From the NCBI RefSeq assembly GCF_000934755.1, contig NZ_JYNP01000051.1:1-39653 (forward strand): a stretch of 39,653 nt of DNA, given 5' to 3'. Below, piece by piece: positions 2,890 to 39,548 of the stretch. Numbering within the stretch: position 1 is the first letter of the stretch; the number at the start of each line of letters is the position of its first letter. The position numbers and the translations under genes were made by a program. The DNA is from Desulfonatronovibrio magnus. Lineage in GTDB: Bacteria; Desulfobacterota; Desulfovibrionia; Desulfovibrionales; Desulfonatronovibrionaceae. Under the pieces are notes generated by a model that did not search any database, was not told the DNA's origin, and was given only the letters and a program-made list of their open reading frames with translations.

Positions 2890-3304
2890 AGTTTAACTTA
2901 GAAGCTCCTCCCCCGGGCGGCCCGGGACCGAACCTGCGAGTAACTGTCTTTAAAGTGGAGCCTGCATCCTGCAGGCTATTTAATTCCAGGCGGCTGGAAG
3001 CCGCCTCCACCTTGAAGAACAGTCCCATATTTGGAAATTGGGACAGTCCCCGCGAGGTACTTTAAAAAAGATTGATGCTGCATTGGTTCCTGGAAGAAAT
3101 TTGCTTAAATGATAAAATTTACACAGCGAGGGACAGTCCCCCTCCGGGCTGTAAGCCTCCGGGCAGGAAGCTGTGCCAGGCGCAAAGCTCTCATCTTTGA
3201 CGGAACTTTTCTGGCAAATGTGCATCAATCAAAGCAAAAATCGTAAAAATTTGATAGCTGTAACTTTCTGAATTTATTATCAAAATAATTATAGTTACTT
3301 GTAA
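2890..3304 (+). repeat. Repeat family A, copy 1 (about 415 bp)
   Basis: It starts with the module ACTTAGAAGCTCCTC followed by a CCCGGGCGGCCCGGG palindrome and ends with AGTTACTTGTAAG. In between are two perfect hairpins (AGCCTGCA-TCC-TGCAGGCT at 2959-2977 and GGCGGCT-GGA-AGCCGCC at 2989-3005) and two copies of the 11-bp palindrome GGGACAGTCCC (3040-3050, 3130-3140). A near-full inverted copy is at 36290-36706 and a right-truncated copy at 39260-39548. Frames crossing it are repeat artefacts. Confidence 0.85.
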
Positions 3305-3472
3305 GGGCTAAACTGAAACAATTATTGAATTGTTACCAATCGACTGTGACAAATAAGATGAGTTTTTCATAGCCAACAACAAGCACAGTAGTAATTGACT
3401 TATATCCAAAAACATATTTTTGGACACTACTTGGGTCCATACCGGCAACAGGATCCTTTTACCTGCTGAACA

Positions 3473-3624
3473 GGGAGCATTACGCGTTTCTGACAACCAG
3501 ACAGGGGACAGTCCCGAAGCCAGGGACAGTCCCGGTGCCAATGCATGATAAACAGCTTTTAACCCCAAAAAAGCTGTGACAAACACATCAATTTTTTCAG
3601 TTTTCAGAAACGCGTCATGCTCCC
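3473..3624 (+). mobile_element. MITE-like element, copy 1 (152 bp)
   Basis: The left end begins GGGAGCATTACGCGTTTCTG and the right end (3601-3624) is its inverse with one mismatch. The 8 bp on each side, GCTGAACA (3465-3472) and GCTGAAAA (3625-3632), match at 7 of 8 positions, as expected for a target-site duplication. Inside are two GGGACAGTCCC palindromes (3505-3515, 3523-3533). There is no coding capacity. Related copies are at 27395-27560 and 38395-38484. Confidence 0.8.
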
Positions 3625-3642
3625 GCTGAAAAAACATGTAAT

Positions 3643-3679
3643 AAAAAATCCCGGCCAGCCTGATGGCCAGCCGGGATTT
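3643..3679 (-). terminator. Rho-independent terminator after nrfA
   Basis: The arms AAATCCCGGC (3646-3655) and GCCGGGATTT (3670-3679) form a 10-bp stem, extended inside by GCC/GGC. Read on the minus strand the stem is followed by a run of T residues. It lies just beyond the nrfA stop at 3701. Confidence 0.85.
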
Positions 3680-3700
3680 ATGTTAATGTCTGTAAAAAAA

Positions 3701-5239
3701 TCAGTTACTTACTCTTTTATTCAGGTCCCAGACCAGATCTGCTTCTTCAAACTTAGGCAGATATTGGAACCATTGGTGAGTATCCAGATGCTCCTGACTC
3801 ATCTGCAGTTTGCGGCTGTGTTCTTCTATGGGAGGAACAACTTCATAGATATCGCCCTCCAGATCAGGGGCAATGCCGTAGTTGGTTGCCTTCATGGCCA
3901 GATTGACTGCCTGCTGGCTGTACTGCTGAGAACTGGCCAGAGTATCTATGGCCTTGGATGGATTGTGGAAACCAGCACTGTTTTCAGCAGAAACCCAGTC
4001 CCAATACCACTGACCCTTCCTGATTCTTTCCCTGGCCTGAATCATCAGCTCATCAAAGTCAGCTCTTTTGAAACCCCGGTATTCAGAAGCCAGACGAACA
4101 GCCTCATGAGCCTTGACTGACAGTTCCTGGGCAATCATAAGCTGTTCCCAGGTCCGTTCCTGGCTATATATTACTCTTTCCTTGAGATAGTCAGGCTGCT
4201 TGTCAGAATGGCATTGCAGGCAGGACTGCTCAATGTGTTTCAGGGGAGAAGTCCATCGGTGAGAAGAGATCTTTTTCTTACCATCCAGACGGACATAGGG
4301 CATATGACAGTCAGCACAGGATACTCCGGCAGCACCGTGAGTACCGTCCTGCCACATTTCAAACTCAGGGTGCTGGGCCTTGATCATGGGCGTGTCAGAA
4401 ACAGGATGAGTCCAGTCTATAAACCAGCCTTCAAAGCCTTCTCTCGTGGTAGAGCCAAAGCTCTTATAATACTCATATGTTTCTGGTGGGTTATAGCCTT
4501 GTGTCCATGGGAATACAGGCTTGGCTGCTGCCCCAAATTTGGGATCCTGAAAATAGTATTCAACATGGCACTGAGCACAGACATAGGAGCGCATTTCATT
4601 TCGGGTGGCATTATCCAAGTCAATTCCAATCTTTTCAAATGCATCTCTTAAAGGCACGCTGGTTATCCGCAAATCCATTGTTTCCGGCTCATGGCAGATA
4701 TTACAGCCAATGGTATGGTCATCCATGTCATGTTCTTCGCGAAACTGATGAAACTCCATGGCCCAGAAGTCATCGCCATATTTTTCAACATAGCCAGGGA
4801 CCTTGTTGCTTTTGCAGTTCCAGCATGTAGAAGGCAGGCCTGCCTGCTCACTGTATCTGTTGATTCTGTCAATATCCAGGACATCATGTACAGCATAAGT
4901 ATGGCCTCTTGCCCGGTTGTATTCAAAGCTGAAAGGGTAACCGAGCCACAGGTTTTTCAAGTAGGGCTGGCAATATTTATAAGCCCTTGGCAAATCACCG
5001 CACAAATGCTTTTCATGAGGAACAGAACCACCATATTCAGTCATCTGACTGTCATCTTCATTTTGAAGATATGTCTGGTAATGAATGGGAAAAAATGGCT
5101 CAAAAGCACTGTTTCGGTCTTCGCTTGCGTCCAGAGTTGTTTCATATGATGGGGTTACAGGATCCGGTATCTCTGTACAGCCCGCCACAAGATAAAAAGC
5201 AAAAAACATGAAAACTATTGCAAAGTATGTCTTACTCAT
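3701..5239 (-). CDS. nrfA: Cytochrome c nitrite reductase, catalytic subunit NrfA
   Basis: NrfA reduces nitrite to ammonium with six electrons in the periplasm (EC 1.7.2.2). The 512-residue product has the catalytic lysine-ligated heme site CWNCK (139-143) and four CXXCH sites: CNICH (179), CAQCH (221), CADCH (308) and CLQCH (340). Active-site landmarks are present: the CAQCHVEYYF block holding the conserved Tyr228, and KAQHPE with His290. The N-terminus has a hydrophobic signal ending in VAGC (Cys21), a plausible lipobox, so the protein may be lipid-anchored as well as bound by NrfH. I start at the ATG at 5239, which has GGAGG 7 nt upstream; the TTG two codons earlier has no room for a ribosome-binding site. 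The start overlaps the nrfH stop by 8 nt, so the two are translationally coupled. Identification is secure. Confidence 0.97.
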   Translation of the reverse strand: MSKTYFAIVFMFFAFYLVAGCTEIPDPVTPSYETTLDASEDRNSAFEPFFPIHYQTYLQNEDDSQMTEYGGSVPHEKHLCGDLPRAYKYCQPYLKNLWLGYPFSFEYNRARGHTYAVHDVLDIDRINRYSEQAGLPSTCWNCKSNKVPGYVEKYGDDFWAMEFHQFREEHDMDDHTIGCNICHEPETMDLRITSVPLRDAFEKIGIDLDNATRNEMRSYVCAQCHVEYYFQDPKFGAAAKPVFPWTQGYNPPETYEYYKSFGSTTREGFEGWFIDWTHPVSDTPMIKAQHPEFEMWQDGTHGAAGVSCADCHMPYVRLDGKKKISSHRWTSPLKHIEQSCLQCHSDKQPDYLKERVIYSQERTWEQLMIAQELSVKAHEAVRLASEYRGFKRADFDELMIQARERIRKGQWYWDWVSAENSAGFHNPSKAIDTLASSQQYSQQAVNLAMKATNYGIAPDLEGDIYEVVPPIEEHSRKLQMSQEHLDTHQWFQYLPKFEEADLVWDLNKRVSN

Positions 5240-5861: not shown

Positions 5862-6677
5862 TTAATGCTTTAAATCTGGCACAAAGGAACAGATAGATTT
5901 AGATATTAAGGCTTTTAATGAAGACAAACCATGTTCATAGCGGGCTTCAAATTCTTTAAGATATAATGGAAAACTTTCAGGTGAGAATTTGTGGTACCTG
6001 TCCAGCATTTCAAAACACATGGTCCAAAAAGATGATTCAGCCTCAAGGCTACGTCTGTGATCCAGAAAGTTATCACACCGTGTCTTTTTTCTAAGATATG
6101 CGCAACAGGAAAAAAGAAGATACCCATTTTCACCAGGATAGTCGCAGACAAACATGGATCTGCAAAATCTTTTTCTGGTCTGCATGAATAGCACTTCTTT
6201 AACATTCAGGCTGGGTACATACCCTACCTTAACTCCAGTGCCTGCGTACCTGACAGAAAATACAGGGGCATTCTCTCCCAGGCAGTGCTTGAACCTGGCA
6301 TCACCCTCGGCCATGCTGCAATACGTTCTGATCTTTAGTGGATTTTCCAGGAGGGGAATAAAAGTTTCGTCTCTGATCAAAAGGCTTGAACGAATAACTT
6401 TGAGGGATTTATGGGCAAGATTATAACTGAGGTTTAAACTGCGGGCAATACTGGCTGCTGACCAGCCACTTATATAATATTTGATAATTTCTTCCCATGA
6501 GTTATGATCAAGAGAACAATAATTCAACCAGCGACCGGAAAAGTCATGAAATGTGTACTTGCAAAGAGAACACCTGTATCTATCACCCTTGAGCATATAT
6601 ATATTTTTGTTGCTGCACCTGGGGCAAAAGATATATCCGTCTTCCCAGCAAAATTCATGTAATGATGTATTATCCAT
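5862..6677 (-). CDS. Transposase-derived zinc-ribbon protein (IS1595/ISXO2-like), probably domesticated
   Basis: The 271-residue product begins with a zinc ribbon, CPRC (18-21) and CSLC, of the kind found at the N-terminus of IS1595-family transposases. A helix-turn-helix-like segment (WSAASIARSLNLSYNLAHKSL) follows. The C-terminus (EAESSFWTMCFEMLDRYHKFSPESFPLYLKEFEARYEHG) resembles the end of ISXO2-like DDE domains, where ESFW precedes a YHxxSxxxxxxYxxEFxxRYxH stretch. The usual first catalytic motif (VDETYIGG) is not recognisable; AEGDARFK stands about where it should be. I see no terminal inverted repeats or target duplication around the gene, and it sits between hcp and nrfHA on the same strand. 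I infer a retired transposase, perhaps used as a DNA-binding regulator; a degraded insertion sequence is the alternative. Confidence 0.65.
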   Translation of the reverse strand: MDNTSLHEFCWEDGYIFCPRCSNKNIYMLKGDRYRCSLCKYTFHDFSGRWLNYCSLDHNSWEEIIKYYISGWSAASIARSLNLSYNLAHKSLKVIRSSLLIRDETFIPLLENPLKIRTYCSMAEGDARFKHCLGENAPVFSVRYAGTGVKVGYVPSLNVKEVLFMQTRKRFCRSMFVCDYPGENGYLLFSCCAYLRKKTRCDNFLDHRRSLEAESSFWTMCFEMLDRYHKFSPESFPLYLKEFEARYEHGLSSLKALISKSICSFVPDLKH

Positions 6678-27012: not shown

Positions 27013-27394
27013 ATTTGAAGATAATTCCGTTTTGATTATTTACACTCAGCCTGCATGTCATTATGCCGATCATATGGCTGCAGAGCAACGTATAAAAGTG
27101 CTTTCGTTCACAAGTTCTGCCGTTTATCACACCACCTTGCACTAAGTCAATGCTTAACTCTTATCAAATTTAAAATCAGTGCGATTTTTTTCTCGCCCCA
27201 TGATTGCCTCTCATAAGGCTCAGCCCAACAAGTCAGCAAGGCTGTTCTCATGTGAAAAAAGGCATGCAAAAATAACAATCTTGCTTTTTGAAGCCAGGAG
27301 AGCTAAATTAAAAAGTTATTTGCTGAATCATTCTGGTGTGTATGCCCAACTTCTACCCTCCGGTGGAACGGCTTATAAATTCAGGTATCTGCTC
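27013..27394. other. Intergenic region upstream of the F0 operon
   Basis: This is a 382-bp gap. A half-site TTGTGAA (minus strand, complement of 27109-27116) is the only hint of a Rex site and lacks a good second half. I see no credible gene; frames here lack ribosome-binding sites and familiar motifs. Confidence 0.4.
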
Positions 27395-27560
27395 GGGAGC
27401 ATTACGCGTTTCTGAAAAGTCAATTGGGGACAGCCCCCCTCCGGGCTGTTAGCCTCCGGGCAGGAAGCCGGGTCAAGCTGTCACAATCAAGTTTATACCC
27501 CAAAAAACAGTTATGACATGCAATTCGGATTTAAAGTTTTCAGAAACGCGTAATGCTCCC
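27395..27560 (+). mobile_element. MITE-like element, copy 2 (166 bp, perfect 24-bp ends)
   Basis: The two ends (27395-27418 and 27537-27560) are perfect 24-bp inverted repeats, beginning GGGAGCATTACGCGTTTCTG. The flanking octamers ATCTGCTC (27387-27394) and ATATGTTC (27561-27568) match at 6 of 8 positions, in the same register as copy 1. The interior has GGGGACAGCCCC and the GGGCTGT..GCCTCCGGGCAGGAAGC block also found in family A. There is no coding capacity. It lies 63 bp upstream of the Lon-like gene and may affect its transcription. Confidence 0.85.
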
Positions 27561-27623
27561 ATATGTTCCCATCACGCCTGACAAACACCAAACCTCTCTC
27601 AATTCAAAAACAGGAATCAGAGC

Positions 27624-36142: not shown

Positions 36143-36289
36143 AATAAACTCCTGACAGAAATTAAGTATCAGTTCAGCATCTTGTAGTGCAAAGGTCAAC
36201 CCACAAGTATTTTGATATAATGCAATTGCTCGCCACCCCATAGCCTGCTCTCAAGCCTTTAGAATTACAACCTTTTTGTGTCAACATAG

Positions 36290-36706
36290 CGCTTCTAAGT
36301 AACTGGAATAGTTTTGCTAATAAAATCAGATATTTACAGCTTTCACATTTTGACGATTTTTGCTTTGATTGATGCACATTTGCCAGCAAAATTCCGTCAA
36401 AGATGGGAACTTTGCACCTGGCACAGCTTCCTGCCCGGAGGCTTACAGCCCGGAGGGGGACTGTCCCTCGCTGTGTAAATTTTTCCATTGAAGCAAATTT
36501 CTTCCAGGAATCAATGGAGCATCAATCTGTTTTATAGTACCTCGCGTGGACTGTCCCAGTTTCCAAATATGGGACAGCTCTTCAAGGTGGAGGCGGCTTC
36601 CAGCCGCCTGGAATTTAATAGCCTGCAGGATGCAGGCTCCACTTTAAAGACAGTTACTCGCAGGTTCGGTCCTGGTTCGCCCAGGTGAGGAGCTTACAAG
36701 TAACTA
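36290..36706 (-). repeat. Repeat family A, copy 2 (inverted, near full length)
   Basis: It is the reverse complement of 2890-3304 over almost its whole length, including the tail with GACGGAATTTTGCTGGCAAA and TGCATCAATCAAAGC. It carries one GGGACTGTCCC (36457-36467). The element is bounded by AAGTAACT at both edges (36297-36304 and 36698-36705). It abuts family B copy 3, so the two share an end module. Confidence 0.85.
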
Positions 36707-37121: not shown

Positions 37122-38114
37122 CTAATCCCGCAAAGCTGCAACCTCTTCAATAGTAAGACCGGTTTTCAAAGCAATGGTTTCATCGTCCAGAACCTCCAGA
37201 AGGTTTCGAGCCATTTTTAAAGTAGTCTCTTCGCGCCCTTTTACCAACCCTTGTTTCAAACCCTCTTCACGCCCTTTTGCCAATCCTTGCTCAATGCCTT
37301 CTTCCCGCCCTTTTACCAAGCCTTGTTCAAGGCCTTCCTTCCGCCCTTTTACCAAGCCTTGCTCATGGCCTTCTTCGAGTCCTTCATCACGTGCCGTATC
37401 CAGAACATTTTTCAAGTCCCGATAATATTTCAAACTGTCCTCGTATTTCAAAACCTCATCCCGGCTAAAGTTGGCGATTTCTGCCACCTGGAAAAATTTT
37501 TCGAAAATCTGTTCCCTTAATGCGTCAGGAACCCTGTCCAACCGGTCAAGGTGCTTGATGGCATAAAGCCACTTGTCAAACCTGGTTTCCAGCTGATCAA
37601 GACTTTTGCGGAATTTGGGCAACTCCAGATAGATAAAGGTCAGCTTGTCGTAGAACACCTTGTTGGTGACTATGTCCTGGAGTTTGATGTCGTACCGATA
37701 CTTGTCAGGATCATTTTTATCCTCGTCAAAAATAAAATCAAGAATGCCGATGGTGTACACGGCCTTGAGTTCAAAATTCCAATCCCCGCGCTGGGCTTGA
37801 TGCTGGATGGGAAAAGTAGCATAAAATACGCTGCGATCCTTGAAAAAATTCTGCTTGGCCTTTTGCAGCTCTACAATAAACTTCTCGCCGCGCTGGTTTT
37901 CACAGTACAGGTCAAAAATTGCCTTGCGGTCAAGACCTGTGGCACCAAGATGTTCGTCTTTAAGATATGTCAAATCTACGATTTCCCCCTGTTCATCCTT
38001 GAGCAGCTCGTTTAAAAAGTCACGCAGCAAATCCTTGTTGGGTTCTTCACCAAAAAGGCGCTTAAACCCATAGTCAGTAAAAAAATTGACATAGCGATCT
38101 TTTAAATACGTCAT
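37122..38114 (-). CDS. PD-(D/E)XK nuclease family transposase-like protein (Rpn/PDDEXK_2)
   Basis: The 330-residue product starts MTYLKDRYVNFFTDYGFKRLFGEEPNKDLLRDFLNELL, the signature of the PDDEXK_2 / Rpn-type group. The predicted nuclease core has Asp in IFDLYCENQRGEKFIVELQK, giving D-Xn-E-X-Q-K. The family includes recombination-promoting nucleases and is often spread in accessory DNA; it is not a classical transposase. The C-terminal part (about 243-295) is a run of 12-residue repeats based on EGLEQGLVKGRE, encoded by 36-bp DNA repeats, followed by a short helical end. A GAGGAG ribosome-binding site lies 8 nt before the ATG. It sits as a single gene in a repeat-rich interval. Confidence 0.85.
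   Translation of the reverse strand: MTYLKDRYVNFFTDYGFKRLFGEEPNKDLLRDFLNELLKDEQGEIVDLTYLKDEHLGATGLDRKAIFDLYCENQRGEKFIVELQKAKQNFFKDRSVFYATFPIQHQAQRGDWNFELKAVYTIGILDFIFDEDKNDPDKYRYDIKLQDIVTNKVFYDKLTFIYLELPKFRKSLDQLETRFDKWLYAIKHLDRLDRVPDALREQIFEKFFQVAEIANFSRDEVLKYEDSLKYYRDLKNVLDTARDEGLEEGHEQGLVKGRKEGLEQGLVKGREEGIEQGLAKGREEGLKQGLVKGREETTLKMARNLLEVLDDETIALKTGLTIEEVAALRD
37220..37386 (-). repeat. 36-bp coding tandem repeats in the Rpn-like gene
   Basis: Four to five imperfect 36-bp units encode EGLEQGLVKGRE-like dodecapeptides. Units differ by small changes (LVKGRK, LAKGRE, LKQG). The array could change length by slippage or recombination without shifting frame. Confidence 0.8.
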
Positions 38115-38294: not shown

Positions 38295-38394
38295 TTCCGT
38301 TAAATACACGCAGGTCGGGCGCAGCCATTCAACAATAGCGAACGGACGGTTAAAATATCTTATTTTGGTTGAGTGCGAAGTCAGGAACATCCCC

Positions 38395-38484
38395 AGAGCC
38401 AGGCCGTCACAATCAGATTTCAAACCAAAATAACTATGACATACAACTCAAATTTTAAATTTTTTAGAAACGCGTAATATTCCC
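38395..38484 (+). mobile_element. MITE-like element, copy 3 (right-end remnant)
   Basis: The stretch GTCACAATCAGATTTCAAACC and the following ACTATGACATACAACTC match the inner right half of the 27395-27560 element. The right terminus (38461-38484) keeps AGAAACGCGTAAT with three mismatches in 24. No left terminus is found, so this copy is truncated. Confidence 0.7.
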
Positions 38485-39210: not shown

Positions 39211-39259
39211 GATAAATACATTCACCAGGTCTGCCTTTACTTCGCGAAGTGAGTGCAGG

Positions 39260-39548
39260 TACTTAGTAGCTCCTCACCTGGGCGGCCCGGGATAAAACTT
39301 GTGAGAAACTGTCTTTAAAGTGGAGCCTGCATCCTGCAGGCTATTTAATTCCAGGCGGCTGGAAGCCGCCTCCACCTTGAAGAACAGTCCCATATTTGGA
39401 AATTGGGACAGTCCCCGCGAGGTACTATAAAAAAGATTGATGCTGCATTGGTTCCTGGAAGTAATTTGCTTCAATGGAAAAATTTACACAGCGAGGGACA
39501 GTCCCCCTCCGGGCTGTAAGCCTCCGGGCAGGAAGCTGTGCCAGGCGC
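39260..39548 (+). repeat. Repeat family A, copy 3 (right-truncated)
   Basis: It matches 2890-3180 almost base for base, from ACTTAGTAGCTCCTCACC through both hairpins and two GGGACAGTCCC palindromes (39405-39415, 39495-39505), to GCTGTGCCAGGCGC. The tail present in copies 1 and 2 is missing. Confidence 0.85.

Follow-up and report, generated by a model that had tools for sequence, protein, structure and literature searches.

The question raised by positions 27395-27560 of the window, by which we mean the whole 39,653-nucleotide stretch of DNA analyzed here, is whether a short sequence with inverted ends reached this site by transposition and which enzyme would have moved it. The window lies within contig C19 of the home genome, a 4,809,662-base (4.81-Mb) draft in 134 contigs. 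The feature is very probably one copy of a MITE family that would be moved by a DDE-type transposase supplied in trans. This family is real and abundant, new in sequence as far as our searches show and ordinary in kind; its ends, target duplications, copy number, mostly intergenic placement, occurrence in several genera and an empty paralogous site can all be read directly from the DNA.

At the locus itself (Table 1), the first-pass annotation had described termini identical over 24 bp in inverted orientation, no coding capacity and flanking octamers agreeing at six of eight positions. All three observations were borne out, as the left arm is the exact reverse complement of the right arm, no open reading frame (ORF) of at least 80 aa in the ORF list of the window overlaps the element, and the octamers read ATCTGCTC and ATATGTTC. 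Like the rest of the family, the element is short and has no transposase gene. Shuffled versions of the window yielded 0.00 matches to the 24-mer end at up to 3 mismatches. The annotation also pointed to a relative at 3473-3624; its 7/8 flanking duplication stood, as did the difference of one base from the 24-mer at each end, but its own two arms differ at two positions rather than one. Two listed ORFs overlap this second copy, wholly or at its end (109 aa, 3308-3637, minus strand; 167 aa, 3617-4120, plus strand), and we take them for chance frames. A further relic had been missed, and its right end (38461-38484) has 3 mismatches to the 24-mer.

Table 1. Copies of the MITE family in the window and their parts
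Feature	Position	Strand	Remarks
MITE, 166 bp, one-palindrome type with 31-bp module	27395..27560	+	
Left terminal inverted repeat, 24 bp	27395..27418	+	perfect match to right arm
Right terminal inverted repeat, 24 bp	27537..27560	-	perfect match to left arm
Left target duplication copy ATCTGCTC	27387..27394	n/a	6/8 with 27561-27568
Right target duplication copy ATATGTTC	27561..27568	n/a	6/8 with 27387-27394
Internal palindrome GGGGACAGCCCC, variant of GGGGACAGTCCC	27426..27437	+	
Optional 31-bp module CCTCCGGGCTGTTAGCCTCCGGGCAGGAAGC	27438..27468	+	present or absent at the same point among other copies
Second MITE copy, 152 bp, two-palindrome type, 'GACAACCAGA' subfamily, without 31-bp module	3473..3624	+	
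Left target duplication of second copy GCTGAACA	3465..3472	n/a	7/8 with 3625-3632
Right target duplication of second copy GCTGAAAA	3625..3632	n/a	7/8 with 3465-3472
5'-truncated relic, right end only	38372..38484	+	left limit approximate; repeat families D6, D11

A search of the genome for the 24-bp end, as the annotation had recommended, yielded 161 matches at up to 3 mismatches (78 forward, 83 reverse) and none for the reversed control, which suggests roughly 80 elements. From the loci and additional fetched stretches, 63 pairs of convergent ends were assembled among the end matches listed, so that not all 161 are paired. Each end received one best partner at a distance of 100-310 bp; no more than 11 mismatches were allowed over both ends together and no more than 4 at the better of the two, and the set includes one 289-bp pair that spans two neighboring copies in L062. 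Element lengths in these pairs range from 113 to 301 bp, with clusters at 151-153, 161-168 and 180-184 bp.

Target duplications of 8 or 9 bp (at least 7/8 or 8/9 positions) flank 34 of the 63 home pairs, where random pairing of flanks would be expected to give 0.05, and perfect duplications flank 21 of the 63, where random pairing gave 0. Twenty-six pairs carry an 8-bp duplication at 7/8 or 8/8 positions; these show no strong consensus, and their G+C fraction of 0.43 equals that of the flanks. The remaining 29 home pairs have no clear duplication and could be old, recombined or wrongly bounded copies. In addition, duplications were detected in 16 of 25 pairs from other genomes (a list of 26 rows, with L207 left out as the window copy itself). 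The duplication length was also scanned in 53 rows of pairs 60-400 bp apart with at most 6 mismatches per end, including overlapping alternatives within L055, L062 and L066. Here the flank match frequency was 0.63 at 8 bp versus 0.29 for random pairing and 0.35 at 9 bp versus 0.28, with three perfect 9-bp cases, and at lengths of 2-7 and 10-13 bp it stayed within 0.04 of the control. The annotation had named a lack of 8-bp duplications in other copies as one observation that would speak against its reading; the 34 duplicated pairs instead uphold the duplication, with its length refined to 8 or 9 bp.

The sites of insertion are mostly intergenic. None of 55 copies lies fully within an ORF of at least 150 aa, and six of the 55 overlap one partially. 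Several copies sit within other repeats, the clearest being L026, whose joined flanks are 89 % identical over 108 bases to a repeat beside L017. That paralogue reads through the L026 site with a single target copy (TGTGCTAC/TGTGCTAA), and six further empty-site alignments span the junction but are noisier there than L026. For the window site, one same-genus relative (G012) has the AtpZ and Lon-like genes adjacent, about 280 bp apart and in the same gene order as the window; this intergenic region contains no family end (best 11/24 mismatches) and is too diverged for comparison at the base level. The region matches G010 only partially, and in G008, G009 and G011 another gene, an RND-type transporter in a by-eye reading of the DNA, lies upstream of the Lon-like gene, so the window site is not comparable there. 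The comparison with empty sites thus gave a single-target paralogous site and one syntenic relative that lacks the end. The other adverse observation named in the annotation, that orthologous sites in relatives were never without the element, was not made either, as judged from the G012 region as a whole. The family accordingly has the features expected of a MITE, namely terminal inverted repeats, a duplication of 8 and sometimes 9 bp, multiple mostly intergenic copies and empty sites. Together, the duplicated pairs at home and elsewhere, the L026 empty site and the G012 region without an end support the earlier claim of true transposition of a non-autonomous element.

We propose that a DDE-type transposase supplied in trans would recognize the inverted ends GGGAGCATTACGCGTTTCTGAAAA of a short non-coding element, cut there and join the ends to target DNA, mostly intergenic, that is cut with a stagger of 8 (sometimes 9) bp. 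The flanking duplication would then result from repair at the target. What we infer here is the enzyme, together with its use of DDE chemistry and its acting in trans.

The annotation had noted that the mobilizing transposase is absent from the window, which was confirmed; moreover, it was found in none of the sequences searched. The autonomous element with the same ends that the annotation had proposed to look for was detected, in these draft genomes, neither in 40 stretches searched by end pairs (20 from the home genome and 20 from other genomes of the end-carrying genera) nor in four transposase-family searches. Most of the 40 stretches were chosen at end matches without a listed partner, and several of these proved to be paired with a diverged end. 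An exact 20-mer of the end had 0 matches in viral contigs, and the window element had no blastn match among plasmids.

For the enzyme, our best guess, and a tentative one, is an IS1595/Merlin-like transposase, ranked first because of the GG start of the ends and the 8-9-bp duplication. A passage of PMC8101967 states that the ends of Merlin elements start with GG and that these elements duplicate 8 or 9 bp of target, 8 bp being usual for IS1595 members. The two features expected of an IS1595-derived MITE, an 8-bp duplication and GG-starting ends, are both present here, and the likeness drawn from that passage lies in these features; past the first bases, the end sequences differ. For comparison, a copy of ISAba36 is bounded by GGGGCTGTAGTAGAT ends and flanked by the 8-bp duplication AAAATGAT. 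No IS1595 transposase bounded by the family ends was found. The PF12762 model matched one of six genomes (G045) and had no match in the home genome, which weighs against a recent IS1595 mobilizer there, though the model also misses a diverged IS1595-like gene in the window. At the G045 locus (L148) there is no family end (best 8/21 mismatches) and no inverted pair like it. PF00872 matched none of six genomes. Other candidates for the mobilizer are an IS1-like, an ISL3-like or an undescribed family.

The IS1595-like gene in the window (5862-6677, minus strand) encodes a 271-aa protein with a Zn_ribbon_IS1595 match (E 1.2e-5). It adjoins nrfA (Cytochrom_C552) and, with frames read by eye, lies between nrfH and hcp. 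In a Desulfonatronum genome, a homologue with 35 % identity (L148, 1036-1908) likewise lies between hcp- and nrfA-like frames read by eye. Compared with ISAba36, both proteins are without the first catalytic aspartate, having LKIRTY or LKTHCR in place of LDESY, and keep D179 and E242. As the mobilizer of the family, the window gene was rejected, with no end nearby (best 9/24 mismatches) and the first catalytic aspartate missing in the alignment. No relative of its protein was found in viral contigs, and plasmids yielded only ISAba36 at 23 % in 4 records. Judged from these sequences, the window protein and its L148 homologue are a candidate for a domesticated transposase in a nitrite/NO locus. 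The window also encodes, at 37122-38114 on the minus strand, a transposase of the PD-(D/E)XK nuclease family (PDDEXK_2, E 7.8e-77), whose coding sequence has 36-bp tandem repeats close to the C-terminal end.

That an ISL3-type element moves the family is very unlikely. ISL3 elements also make 8-bp duplications, and fragments of them occur in G046 (5) and in the home genome (1). However, the sequence following the ISL3 gene in G046 ends in GGTTCATCCGG, read from the outside in, and not in GGGAGCATTACG, and no matching end lies near the home fragment (best 7/21 mismatches). Across nine genomes, PF01610 matched in two, in fragments with other ends.

A second kind of alternative holds that the element is no transposon and that selection maintains it as a structured RNA or as a dispersed regulatory hairpin. 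The folds are very stable (z -8.1 and -8.9), the home copies show matched substitutions in their arms, and placement is mostly intergenic. The fold, however, comes mainly from the terminal inverted repeat, Rfam at the gathering threshold matches nothing in the window but two tRNAs located elsewhere, and the target duplications and empty site require insertion. We therefore consider this reading highly improbable, though single copies may have taken on an RNA role afterwards.

The interior of the element bears on a further alternative. Read by eye, home copies are modular, with one or two GGGGACAGTCCC palindromes, some of them degenerate, and, in part of the copies, a 31-bp module CCTCCGGGCTGTAAGCCTCCGGGCAGGAAGC located at the same point. 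These module states occur in both main end subfamilies (GAAAAGTCAATT and GACAACCAGATA), so modules have been exchanged, or gained and lost repeatedly. With whole modules varying at home and unrelated interiors in Desulfonatronum, the interior seems dispensable for movement. The window also holds another repeat family, whose members of about 290-426 bp are 90-95 % alike (2896-3321; 36276-36701, inverted; 39257-39548). L023 contains a stretch of 825 bp (1501-2325) in which one end is perfect and the other has 3 mismatches; between two apparent element halves it carries an HsdR_N-like ORF of 181 aa, not a transposase, and it may be a composite or passenger-carrying form.

It could be argued from these interiors that the mobile units are the GGGACAGTCCC palindromes, as a REP/REPIN-type repeat spread by a RAYT (Y1 HUH) transposase, and that the outer repeat is incidental. 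Most displayed home copies carry one or two such palindromes, some degenerate, a 52-nt block of palindrome and module of the GGGACAGTCCC type is common to the MITE interior and the unrelated 290-426-bp repeat family, and the home genome has 10 Y1_Tnp matches. Against this, the 8-9-bp duplications are tied to the outer ends, and Desulfonatronum elements, examined by eye, have the ends without this palindrome. With matches on both strands counted, the palindrome occurs 3 times in the 30.1 kb that cover the 10 home RAYT loci, 18 times in the window (39.7 kb) and not once in 17.7 kb surrounding five further transposase loci of the home genome. Given this lack of concentration at RAYT genes, a RAYT origin of the inner palindromes is not supported. 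REPINs are not known to have 24-bp ends flanked by 8-bp duplications. For the outer element, this reading is largely refuted, and we give it almost no weight.

Similarly hard to credit is an IS1634-like mobilizer from Desulfonatronum, proposed from GGGAGCATTAGTAGTTT just upstream of the gene at L156/L183 (14 of 17 bases of the end, near the expected IS end position), since that copy has no matching end on its other side, a close end match was found only at L183 (the same copy as L156) among the 14 examined of 24 related loci from 19 of 348 genomes, visible inverted pairs (L190-L192, L203) are of type ACTCGACTTTCAC or CACTTTCACC, and the home genome has no relative at E 1e-40. The corresponding PF01609 search gave 14 matches in four of six genomes with no end closer than 6/21 mismatches, the closest being an IS1634-like copy.

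Copies of this MITE family are found beyond the home genome. A 21-mer of the end, at up to 2 mismatches, occurs in 12 of 348 genomes of the class, five from the home family (f1), five from f4/g10 (Desulfonatronum) and two others (G118 and G234), each with a single 2-mismatch match. Among GTDB species genomes, in a search from which records near the home genome were possibly left out, the exact 21-mer was found in 16 stretches from four MAGs, assigned to Desulfonatronovibrio, Desulfonatronospira, Desulfonatronum and Desulfovibrionales; the match positions agree with those in G009, G004, G046 and G045, to which we take these MAGs to correspond. The Desulfonatronum elements share the ends and often the 8-9-bp duplication, have at least three kinds of other interior and are 54-68 % identical to the nearest home copy. 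In L088, L140 and L145 of Desulfonatronum, an inner inverted repeat of type GGTTCATCCAGATCGAG lies within the element and resembles the GGTTCATCCGG end of ISL3 in the same genome, perhaps representing a MITE within a MITE.

Three copies in the Desulfonatronospira MAG (G004), L094, L095 and L099, are 97-99.5 % identical to home copies: L095 matches one at 181/182 positions and is without a duplication, L094 has 3 differences and L099 has 4, and other G004 copies are 75-85 % identical. At the sequence level, this similarity suggests recent transfer between genera, with mis-binning of contigs in the MAG as the alternative.

The same substitution was found in both arms at 17 positions in 11 home elements, compared with 3.0 expected by shuffling, a count reached in 0 of 5,000 shuffles and again in 0 of 20,000, though it is inflated by shared ancestry (L241, L242) and the shuffling ignores descent. 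Restricting the comparison to 43 home copies with at most 2 changes per arm left 5 matched positions versus 0.74, reached by 18 of 20,000 shuffles. In the 26 rows from other genomes, none of 61 changed positions was matched, where 1.0 was expected, and 5 positions were changed differently on the two sides. That arms are matched beyond chance is only a hint; template switching in a hairpin and descent from symmetric variants would both explain it. L241 (G000:C42) and L242 (G000:C123) have a third interior type, and both arms carry the same C-to-T change. Both have perfect target duplications, of 9 and 8 bp, respectively, which implies that the symmetric variant itself moved. The L241 duplication GTCCCGAAG is a string typical of the family interior, and this copy probably jumped into another copy.

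A bolder reading, to which we assign a low probability, is an 'ends-only' system, in which the 24-bp ends would be the sole conserved part of unrelated miniature elements in the soda-lake genera Desulfonatronovibrio, Desulfonatronospira and Desulfonatronum. Such elements would pass between genera and repeatedly acquire palindrome modules from other repeats, with no self-mobile parent in the genomes searched and with arms matched by hairpin copying.

Known systems offer partial parallels to this MITE family. In excerpts of PMC6382973 (mSphere 2019), MITEAba12 of Acinetobacter is described as short, non-coding and bounded by inverted ends, with 90 copies spread over many genomes; 40 % of the copies have 9-bp target duplications, and movement in trans is presumed. 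Judged from those excerpts, the family resembles MITEAba12 in being short and non-coding, with inverted ends, many copies and target duplications. MITEAba12, however, is near-uniform at 111-114 bp and shares its ends with a resident ISAba12, whereas the present family spans 113-301 bp, is modular, keeps only its ends across genera and has no parent found. Chunjie of Geobacter uraniireducens, as presented in part of PMC10969869, is a mostly intergenic MITE whose full copies number in the dozens and measure 178-235 bp, alongside numerous partial copies. From that account, it is likened to this family as a variable-size, mostly intergenic MITE by copy number, size and placement, and its size range and host differ. 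REP/REPIN elements with RAYT transposases appear in passages of PMC2817692 and PMC3116915 as short palindromes in intergenic DNA; the palindromes of this type seen here lie inside the MITE and are not concentrated near RAYT genes. In the open-access literature, we found no published MITE family for this group, nothing on transposable elements of Desulfonatronovibrio and no occurrence of the first 14 letters of the end, and a search for sulfate-reducer MITEs returned only a paper on Thiomargarita.

With these findings, this group of bacteria gains a well-documented MITE family, for which the 161 end matches imply about 80 copies. Strains of soda-lake sulfate reducers could be typed with the family as a marker, and it provides a clear test of how MITEs become abundant without a recognizable parent. 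With shared ends around different interiors and near-identical copies in two genera, both trans-mobilization and horizontal spread are directly testable.
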